In this document: positions 26,421-27,873 of the stretch, one piece after another
How positions within the stretch are numbered: the stretch's first letter is position 1
Layout of the letters: each line of letters begins with the position of its first letter
From: Streptomyces sp. SLBN-31
GTDB lineage: Bacteria; Actinomycetota; Actinomycetes; Streptomycetales; Streptomycetaceae
Assembly (NCBI RefSeq): GCF_006715395.1
Contig: NZ_VFNC01000002.1
Location: 3,782,001 to 3,846,000, forward strand
Length of the DNA: 64,000 nucleotides
Direction of reading: 5' to 3'
Translations under genes and position numbers: made by a program
Notes under the pieces: model-generated
The model's database searches: none
Told to the model about the DNA's origin: nothing
Seen by the model: only the letters and a program-made list of their open reading frames with translations

Positions 26421-26684
26421 TCAGACGGCCGCCTTCTTCAGCCTGCGCCGCTCGCGTTCGGACAGACCGCCCCAGATGCCGAAGCGCTCGTCGTTGGCGA
26501 GGGCGTACTCGAGGCACTCGGAGCGCACCTCGCAGGCGAGGCAGACCTTCTTGGCCTCCCGGGTGGAGCCGCCCTTCTCGGGGAAGAAGGACTCGGGGTC
26601 GGTCTGGGCGCACAGCGCGCGCTCCTGCCAGCCGAGTTCCTCGTCCGCGTCGTCGACCAGCAGTTGCTGCACCAGCTCGGTCAT
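26421..26684 (-). CDS. whiB: WhiB, Fe-S sporulation regulator
   Basis: 87 residues, matching the length and, from memory, nearly all of the sequence of Streptomyces WhiB. Four cysteines at 25, 48, 51 and 57 bind a [4Fe-4S] cluster, and FGIWGGL (68-74) plus the basic tail ERERRRLKKAAV is the sigma-factor and DNA contact region. WhiB works with WhiA to switch aerial hyphae to septation. The gene is head-to-head with cysteine dioxygenase across about 450 bases up to the leader ORF. A promoter-like TTGACT-18-TGTAAT lies 74 bases upstream. Confidence 0.95.
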   Translation of the reverse strand: MTELVQQLLVDDADEELGWQERALCAQTDPESFFPEKGGSTREAKKVCLACEVRSECLEYALANDERFGIWGGLSERERRRLKKAAV

Positions 26685-27138
26685 GTGCGCCCCTCGTCTG
26701 TCTTTCGCGTCCCCGTGATGTAGCCGTTACCGATTCCGGCTGAACGACACGAGTGAAATTACAAGTGTGCTGCTCCGGGCGAGTCAAGCCGAGATCTGCT
26801 ATTGGGCCCCTTATTCACTCTGCGGAACCAAGGCCATGCGGAAAGTGTTCAAATCGGCATAAACCTTGACACGCGGACGAGGCCCGGGAGGGCCTTGGAC
26901 CCATTGCGGAGCCTCTACGGGAAAGGACGCCCGGATGTTCGATCCCGTTCCACGCGCCCCACGAAGCAAACCGGATCACGTTCGGATCACGGGATCGCAA
27001 CGAGGCCTGAGCGCGCGGTTGTGCGCCTTGTGTCCCGGTCCCCCTCTGAACAAACCTTTCATCACCCAGATGGACCGGATGAGGTGAAACCCGTCCCACA
27101 TACCGGGTGTCGAGTTGACAGTGAAGGTGTGAACCGGT
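26685..27138. other. Long divergent control region between whiB and the cysteine dioxygenase leader
   Basis: 454 bases without a supported gene. It holds the whiB promoter (26758-26787) and presumably the promoter of the cysteine dioxygenase leader. A TTGACA at 26866-26871 has no clear -10 partner. GACAC words, the core of WhiA sites, occur at 26746-26750 and 26868-26872. Short frames here are shadows. Confidence 0.55.
26758..26787 (-). promoter_or_regulatory. Candidate whiB promoter
   Basis: Minus-strand TTGACT (26782-26787), 18-nt spacer, TGTAAT (26758-26763). Transcription would start about 65-70 nt before the whiB ATG. whiB is known to have more than one promoter, one of them developmentally controlled; which one this would be is not clear. 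Confidence 0.55.
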
Positions 27139-27243
27139 GTGCTTGTGGGCATGCTCGCGAACTTGGCACCGACCTCGATCCGCACCGCCGGGTCCCACGG
27201 TGCTGCCCGCGCTCGCTGTAGCTGTTGCTGTTCCAGCTGTTGA
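27139..27243 (+). CDS. Cysteine-rich leader peptide upstream of cysteine dioxygenase
   Basis: A 34-codon ORF beginning GTG at 27139 (AAGGTG 9 nt upstream); GTG 27145 and ATG 27151 are alternative in-frame starts. The last eight codons (27217-27240) encode CSCCCSSC, five cysteines, directly before the TGA at 27241-27243. The final codons run into the left arm of a hairpin (27234-27265), followed by a terminator-like hairpin (27268-27291). The arrangement resembles leader peptides that sense aminoacyl-tRNA supply, here for cysteine. Five of the final eight codons being Cys in GC-rich DNA is unlikely for a random frame. Expression is unproven. Confidence 0.7.
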   Translation: MLVGMLANLAPTSIRTAGSHGAARARCSCCCSSC

Positions 27244-27265
27244 GCCTGCCCGATCGCTCCAGCTG
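27234..27265 (+). promoter_or_regulatory. Leader hairpin 1 overlapping the end of the Cys-rich peptide
   Basis: CAGCTG (27234-27239) and GAGC (27242-27245) pair with GCTC (27256-27259) and CAGCTG (27260-27265), with a 2-nt bulge and a 10-nt loop. A ribosome at the last Cys codons or at the stop would cover its left arm, so its folding should depend on leader translation. Confidence 0.6.
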
Positions 27266-27267
27266 AG

Positions 27268-27301
27268 ACCGAGTCGCCCCCGCGGCTCGGTTTCGTGTTT
27301 C
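27268..27301 (+). terminator. Candidate attenuator terminator before cysteine dioxygenase
   Basis: ACCGAGTCG (27268-27276) pairs with CGGCTCGGT (27283-27291), giving 9 bp with one G-T pair and a CCCCCG loop. TTCGTGTTTCT follows directly. It lies 54 bases before the dioxygenase ATG, inside the leader, where a terminator makes sense only as a regulated one. The T-tract is interrupted, so strength is uncertain. Confidence 0.6.
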
Positions 27302-27354
27302 TCCCCCGCTGCTCGTTCCCTCTGACCTTCTTTCACCGAGGAACCACCGCACCC

Positions 27355-27873
27355 ATGAACAGCGACAACGACCTCCAGATCGCCGGCGACATCCTCGAGG
27401 TCCCGCACCTGCTGCAGCCGCCGCGCGAGCACCCGGCCACCGTGGCCGAGTTCGTGGGTCTCGCCCGCTCCGTCGCCGCGGACCGCTCCGAGTGGGAGCA
27501 CCTCGTCCGCTACGACGCCACGACCCGCTGGTACCACCGGCTGCGTACGGGCCCCGGCTACGAGGTGTGGCTGCTGTCCTGGGTGCCGGGCCAGGGCAGC
27601 GGACTGCACGACCACGGGCGTTCGTCGGGCGTGCTGACCGTGCTGGAGGGGACGCTGACCGAGCGGACCGAGCGGGGCACGCGCGCGCTGGCGGCCGGTG
27701 CGCAGCGCGTGTTCGCGCCGGGCTATGTGCACGAGGTCGTCAACGACACGCTGGAGCCGGCCATAAGCCTGCACATCTACTACCCCGGACTGACCGACAT
27801 GCCGATGCACACGTCCCCGCACTGCGAGGCGCGGACCGAGCCGGCGGCGCGGACGCGTCCGGTGACTGCCTGA
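27355..27873 (+). CDS. Cysteine dioxygenase
   Basis: 172 residues from ATG at 27355, with GAGGAA about 12 nt upstream. Oxidises cysteine to cysteine sulfinate with O2, using a cupin-bound Fe(II). Iron-ligand histidines are seen in GLHDHGRSSGVLTVLEG (HxH) and PGYVHEVVND, and the length is typical of bacterial CDO (about 170-200). It degrades excess cysteine towards sulfite and pyruvate. It is preceded by a long leader with a cysteine-rich peptide and two hairpins. fbiA follows after 34 bases on the same strand, so read-through is possible although the functions are unrelated. Confidence 0.92.
   Translation: MNSDNDLQIAGDILEVPHLLQPPREHPATVAEFVGLARSVAADRSEWEHLVRYDATTRWYHRLRTGPGYEVWLLSWVPGQGSGLHDHGRSSGVLTVLEGTLTERTERGTRALAAGAQRVFAPGYVHEVVNDTLEPAISLHIYYPGLTDMPMHTSPHCEARTEPAARTRPVTA

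Follow-up and report, generated by a model that had tools for sequence, protein, structure and literature searches.

Why should a gene whose product degrades cysteine be preceded by a short reading frame ending in a run of cysteine codons, and would such a frame raise or lower the enzyme when cysteine runs short? The question arises in a stretch of 64,000 nucleotides from Streptomyces sp. SLBN-31 (the window; coordinates in Table 1). A sequence-only reading had described here a 34-codon ORF ending in CSCCCSSC right before its stop, followed by two hairpins and a gene for cysteine degradation, and had proposed control by charged Cys-tRNA through a terminator-like hairpin, with plentiful cysteine allowing expression. 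The ORF is present as described (27139-27243 from GTG 27139, tail RCSCCCSSC, then TGA), and the assignment of the downstream gene is borne out by a profile search against Pfam (CDO_I, E 6.8e-20); the substrate-binding Arg of this cysteine dioxygenase (CDO) could not be placed from the sequence. In this genome (G000, 9.47 Mb) the CDO gene is flanked by a whiB-like gene, divergently oriented on the minus strand at 26421-26684, and by cofD; its nearest relatives are from Streptomyces. An Rfam search at the gathering score returned no family; two miRNA matches, both inside the next gene, were far below threshold.

Table 1 Features of the leader–CDO locus in the window and of related leaders discussed in the text (L numbers denote loci)
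Feature	Position	Strand	Basis or remark
−35-like TTGACA	27115..27120	+	36 nt upstream of leader ATG
−10-like TGTGCT	27138-27143	+	
Leader ORF MLANLAPTSIRTAGSHGAARARCSCCCSSC	27151..27243	+	30 codons, probably leaderless; alternative start GTG 27139
Cys-codon tract TGT AGC TGT TGC TGT TCC AGC TGT	27217..27240	+	
Long-range helix, 5' arm (anti-start strand inside Cys codons)	27223..27233	+	
Hairpin 1, CAGCTG + GAGC (stop codon region) with GCTC + CAGCTG	27234..27265	+	
Hairpin 2, terminator-like in the window	27264..27295	+	terminator scan
SD-like GAGGAAC of CDO	27338..27344	+	mostly paired in fold models
Cysteine dioxygenase family gene (CDO1)	27355..27873	+	Pfam CDO_I PF05995
Long-range helix, 3' arm (last base of CDO ATG to first base of codon 5)	27357..27367	+	
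Leader of second CDO, tail GCVCRPSC	L082 1888-2010	-	NCBIfam NF042934, 37.1 bits
Leader before presumed cysI operon, motif HVDL, few Cys codons	L121 ending 8031	-	NF042934
Leader before cysO-cysM, motif HVDL, few Cys codons	L122 ending 2487	-	NF042934
Leader before metNIQ, end GARCMCRMCAF	L123 3645-3731	-	

We fetched 80 CDO loci by protein similarity (79-97% identity), which, being chosen in this way, are close kin, and compared them together with the window. All 81 sequences carry upstream of CDO an ORF with at least three Cys among its last ten codons, and at least four Cys in the last 12 codons were found in 80/81 leaders versus 13/1171 random 400-nt windows from the same loci. The codon directly before the leader stop is Cys in 80/81, the stop is TGA in 81/81, and the bases after it are GCC in 75/81; the spacer to CDO measures 87-193 nt. 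Such an alignment had been suggested with the sequence-only reading, and a cluster of Cys codons ahead of a TGA stop proved conserved throughout (81/81). By this comparison the leader ORF upstream of CDO is confirmed as real.

A class-wide CDO search, in which 159 genomes gave no match, extended the survey. A Cys leader precedes CDO in 25/27 further Streptomyces loci, with an N-terminal part that is sometimes quite different; no leader was found within 320 nt upstream in L141 and L147, and in L143 the start was not found in one scan and the Cys leader was counted from another. Sixteen other genera of the family contributed 20 loci, of which 18 have a tail of at least three Cys; the corresponding figures are 3/20 for the opposite strand and 11.9% for random windows. 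No leader was found in L242 and L247. Forty other CDO-family loci, 38 of them outside Streptomyces, yielded such a tail in nine, versus 11.9% of random windows of similar length, so several of the nine are probably due to chance and Cys leaders beyond the family are weakly indicated. In the further Streptomyces and family loci, the Cys tail is kept and the peptide body is not.

The in-frame ATG at 27151 appears the more likely leader start than GTG 27139. TTGAC lies at −36 from this ATG in 76/81 sequences (at 35 nt in two, at 37 in one, absent in two), and a hexamer TGTCCT, TGTGCT or TGTTCT occupies −13 to −8 in 74/81. Because TTGAC keeps its 36-nt spacing, transcription would begin at or near the leader ATG, and the mRNA is probably leaderless. 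A strict sigma-70 consensus scan of the leader region in the window found no promoter, since the −10-like hexamer there is TGTGCT. GCACCG occurs twice within the leader ORF (27166-27171 and 27182-27187), and either copy can pair with CGGTGC at 27198-27203; the predicted fold uses the first.

In the folding models the Cys codons themselves pair with the start of CDO, a feature absent from the earlier reading. UGUUGCUGUUC, inside the Cys codons, forms 11 bp with GAACAGCGACA. RNAalifold recovered the same helix on three alignments split by spacer length (26, 19 and 36 sequences), and the minimum-energy structure of the window contains it with a probability of 0.99 (z −2.67 for the leader). Over the 81 sequences its probability averages 0.74 (median 0.99; >0.5 in 61), and at least eight uninterrupted pairs, G-U included, form in one fixed register in 76/81. 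When tested against shuffles with ordinary codon use as the null, the helix was significant at p 0.05 in 92/104 sequences (window p 0.03; L131 left out because of its length), compared with only 10/104 (window p 0.18) when the leader's own TGT bias served as the null. A duplex test that permits internal loops did not reach significance in the window (p 0.43; 37/105 at p below 0.05) and gave nearly equal energies for cognate and non-cognate pairs (−25.3 vs −24.6 kcal/mol); because this test is insensitive, uninterrupted stems were used. L170 has a good Cys tail and no significant stem (p 0.20). Codons 2-4 of CDO, AAC AGC GAC, are invariant in 81/81. The start helix is nearly invariant and therefore shows little covariation of its own, with no two-sided changes among 26 short-spacer relatives.

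Codon choice provides a separate view of this pairing. The Cys codons of the CDO genes are TGC in 70/70 cases, whereas those of the leaders are TGT 351 times and TGC 79 times. Counting codons back from the leader stop, the third base opposite an A is T by 76:1 at codon −4, 77:4 at codon −6 and 39:0 at codon −8, and at codon −5 the base opposite a G is C by 60:2. At codon −7, T stands opposite A in 26:0, and opposite G there are 14 T and 2 C. As judged from these counts, the third bases of the leader Cys codons track their pairing partners in the CDO start. TGT is also preferred at codon −1, outside the helix and with no such partner (80/80 Cys codons). In 17/81 sequences codon −5 is CGC (Arg), so that Cys is lost and a U-G pair becomes C-G. 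Codon −7 and nucleotide 14 of CDO are associated (Fisher p 3.8e-7); on the tree there are 14 and 4 changes at the two sites, none sharing a branch, and a test on independent pairs gave no decision.

To model the effect of a leader ribosome, we placed the first Cys codon in its A site and restricted the fold to the RNA 3' of it. The mean unpaired fraction of CDO nucleotides 2-13 was 0.16 without and 0.53 with this ribosome (0.09 and 0.39 in the window), and the CDO start opened by >0.2 in 66/81 models and closed by >0.2 in none. In these models, the initiation region is sequestered by leader RNA and released by a ribosome on the Cys codons. Placing the ribosome at the stop codon opened the CDO start as much (unpaired fraction 0.57), and the sign of control given below therefore assumes quick release. 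Exposure of the SD was considered as the switch and discarded, its mean accessibility being 0.177 in the free RNA, 0.178 with the ribosome at the first Cys codon and 0.174 at the stop.

The conserved Cys-codon leader very probably senses charged Cys-tRNA and controls CDO, and in this respect the earlier proposal is supported; a terminator as the switch is not supported. We propose that the leader mRNA begins at the ATG and that a ribosome translates the 30-codon leader. With charged Cys-tRNA at hand, the ribosome would clear the Cys codons and depart, and the freed codons would pair with the CDO start, hairpins 1 and 2 being folded in between, so that initiation is blocked. With charged Cys-tRNA short, the ribosome would wait on the tract and prevent the helix, and CDO would be translated. 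Rho may then remove untranslated leader RNA and pass the effect to the mRNA level. Since the helix links the Cys codons to the CDO start, a waiting ribosome would raise CDO under cysteine scarcity, and on the strength of the models we lean towards a translation attenuator that responds to charged Cys-tRNA and turns CDO on at low cysteine. The opposite sign, expression in plentiful cysteine, is probably wrong, as the conserved helix predicts the reverse. It is odd physiology for an enzyme that degrades cysteine to be raised in cysteine shortage, and this counts against the proposed sign.

Published expression data point both ways. In RNA-seq of S. coelicolor treated with H2O2, SCO3035 rose 6.5-fold and SCO5772 8-fold, metNIQ rose 2.3- to 5.2-fold, and cys and ssu genes rose up to 18.5-fold (PMC4991794). 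No gene rose in a mutant lacking HbpS-SenS-SenR, which the authors took to be the cause (PMC4991794). SCO3034 is whiB (PMC4255298) and SCO5772 a putative cysteine dioxygenase (PMC3087709); we presume that SCO3035 is the orthologue of the window CDO and SCO5772 that of a second CDO described below. The co-induction of SCO3035 with cysteine-biosynthesis genes fits CDO being on when cysteine is low, as a hint rather than proof, the variable being H2O2 and not cysteine. In feather medium, which is rich in bound cysteine, two cdo genes rose 50- and 8-fold (PMC7181669), and in a second study cdo genes rose 22- and 6-fold at 96 h (PMC12763843), which counts against a simple reading of this kind. The literature consulted for the sign contained no measurement of Streptomyces CDO against cysteine supply.

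The hairpins between leader and CDO bear on the alternatives. Hairpins 1 and 2 both exist, as the sequence-only reading had it, and compensatory changes, sought in both, occur: in an alignment of the 26 short-spacer relatives, 95.7% of cells pair and the two-sided changes sit in these hairpins. Five pairs have two-sided changes, a number reached by 1/500 shuffles and also by sliding the alignment by −1 column; the covariation score of 0.115 was reached by 0/500 shuffles. Long-spacer species have an extra hairpin, and all three elements are probably folded spacers. The T-rich flank that had been described for hairpin 2 is not conserved across the 81 sequences, and only 13/81, the window included, have a terminator-like site in the interval from the leader stop to CDO, for which reason a conserved intrinsic terminator was rejected as the switch. 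Pairing of GAGCC in the stop region with the 3' arm of hairpin 2 was also set aside; its register is not conserved and hairpin 1 explains GAGC better.

If transcription attenuation were at work, hairpin 2 would terminate, and fast translation of the Cys codons in cysteine plenty would let polymerase through, making CDO cysteine-induced. The window does have a terminator-like hairpin with a T-rich tail, the logic suits a catabolic gene, and the rise of cdo genes in feather medium agrees with it. We nonetheless judge this unlikely given the scarcity of terminator-like sites among the 81 sequences, the failure to find an antiterminator in the alignments or the window fold, and a conserved helix that predicts the reverse sign. 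Rho control, in which the translation state of the leader gates Rho access to pyrimidine-rich spacer RNA and the helix acts mainly through lost CDO translation, seems to us likewise improbable as the principal explanation. A C- and T-rich unstructured stretch ahead of the SD would suit it, as would the fact that the SCO3035 change was seen at the RNA level (PMC4991794), but on its own it leaves the conserved anti-start helix unexplained. Rho control can coexist with translation attenuation.

The same translation switch could also run in reverse, with frequent leader translation in plentiful cysteine keeping the tract covered and CDO open. In its favor, the CDO start opens in the models for a ribosome at the stop as well; it requires slow release or very frequent initiation, and the stop codon lies within hairpin 1, yet nothing indicates arrest there, so that we hold it to be quite unlikely. 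That the leader exists for its product, a small Cys-rich protein with a metal- or redox-binding function, and that CDO control is secondary, is very improbable: the N-terminal part is well kept among the 81 close relatives, but distant relatives replace it while keeping the Cys tail and its pairing, and the change of Cys to Arg at codon −5 preserves the pairing.

The proposed kind of control has precedents. Polycysteine leaderless short ORFs of Mycobacterium smegmatis were reportedly described by Canestrari et al. (2020). Cys-responsive polycysteine leader peptides are known in mycobacteria (PMC13236596, PMC9031893, PMC9094748). Like the window, the M. smegmatis systems reportedly have a short ORF, in the window probably leaderless, in which Cys codons run up to the stop, and RNA that conceals the start of the next gene until it is freed by a ribosome waiting at those codons, in the window according to the folding models. 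The window differs in its peptide, in its target, a cysteine-degrading enzyme, and in that its Cys codons base-pair with the beginning of the target's coding sequence. NCBIfam models NF042934 (cis_reg_atten), NF042933 (Ms5788A) and NF042936 (Ms4527A) describe Cys-bearing leaders before sulfur genes, as in the window, whose own leader matched none of the NCBIfam leader models up to E 5 (NF042934 threshold 27 bits).

The LEU element of leuA in actinobacteria is comparable in that consecutive regulatory codons of its leader base-pair with the target's initiation region; that element differs in concerning leucine, pairing with the Shine-Dalgarno box and forming a pseudoknot, and leader translation as its sensor has been doubted (PMC1262725). 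The accessible part of the same source describes cys-operon leaders of Mycobacterium, Propionibacterium acnes and Bifidobacterium that resemble the window in having Cys runs near the stop and no conserved terminator, but their targets are biosynthetic and Streptomyces CDO is not among them (PMC1262725). Classical trp and ilv attenuators also have leader peptides with codons for the relevant amino acid, whereas the type found in the window has no conserved terminator (13/81) and no antiterminator in the alignments or folds, and its target degrades the amino acid. Of the eight leader peptides given in the accessible part of an S. lividans reannotation, not one precedes CDO (PMC8079986). Our search of the literature, mostly outside subscription journals, agrees with the earlier reading in that none of the titles listed describes a leader before CDO. 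The kind of mechanism is known from mycobacterial polycysteine leaders; the target and the design are new. The proposed design is compact: the sensor codons would double as the repressing RNA strand, and they persist where the remainder of the peptide has been replaced.

Cys-bearing leader ORFs precede further sulfur genes in the genome of the window, namely a second CDO, metN, the cysI operon and cysO-cysM, and all of these leaders except that of metN are members of NF042934. The names cysI and cysO-cysM were assigned by operon position around Pfam hits. The second CDO (G000:C1:1326764-1327318; L082 1240-1800, minus strand) adjoins a rhodanese-like ORF. In the last codons of its leader, CCGTCCTG is complementary to the SD region CAGGACGG over 8 bp (p 0.04), and a GCVCR-type tail was found before the second CDO in 29/30 Streptomyces loci examined (30 of 37 loci; L216 was cut by the scan window, and in L199 another frame ranked first). 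In L212, a run of >40 C separates the second CDO leader from the gene, odd enough for an assembly artefact. No leader–RBS stem stood out for metN or cysI (p 0.68 and 0.69). An S. lividans relative of the metNIQ leader has been called methionine-dependent (PMC8079986), but its last stretch holds equal numbers of Cys and Met codons, so cysteine may be sensed too. In the H2O2 experiment, induction grew from SCO2912 to SCO2911 and SCO2910 (PMC4991794), a rise that a leader between mec and cysO would predict.

Taken further, Streptomyces might make CDO on cysteine shortage, with the anti-start Cys run placing both CDO genes in one ribosome-read regulon with sulfate reduction, sulfonate uptake and metNIQ, an extension that we offer tentatively. 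If it were true, CDO enzymes would serve sulfur acquisition or sulfite supply, for example in opening keratin or other disulfides or in using other thiols, and not the disposal of excess cysteine. A textbook catabolic enzyme would then be under biosynthetic-type control, changing the view of Streptomyces CDO and bearing on its reported part in feather keratin breakdown, and ribosome-read cysteine control would extend from mycobacteria to Streptomycetaceae.

Leaders with other peptides occur in other genera. In g120, another genus of the family, an anti-start stem of 11 bp persists in L249 (p 0.03), whose peptide is different, and L238 shows an anti-SD stem of 8 bp (p 0.007). Outside the family, 12 genomes of genus g37 were searched and eight matched; in 8/8 of these a Cys-bearing leader is immediately followed by CTCCGG, the complement of the SD CCGGAG. 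Taken alone, a 6-bp match does not reach significance (L225, p 0.40; L231, p 0.07); the g37 leader looks real from its recurrence in these sequences. The leaders (L225-L232) read MRCCC in five genomes, MQSCR in one and MRRHIDLKRTCTAICR in two, and among them the peptide body is exchanged while the Cys end and the anti-SD sequence stay.
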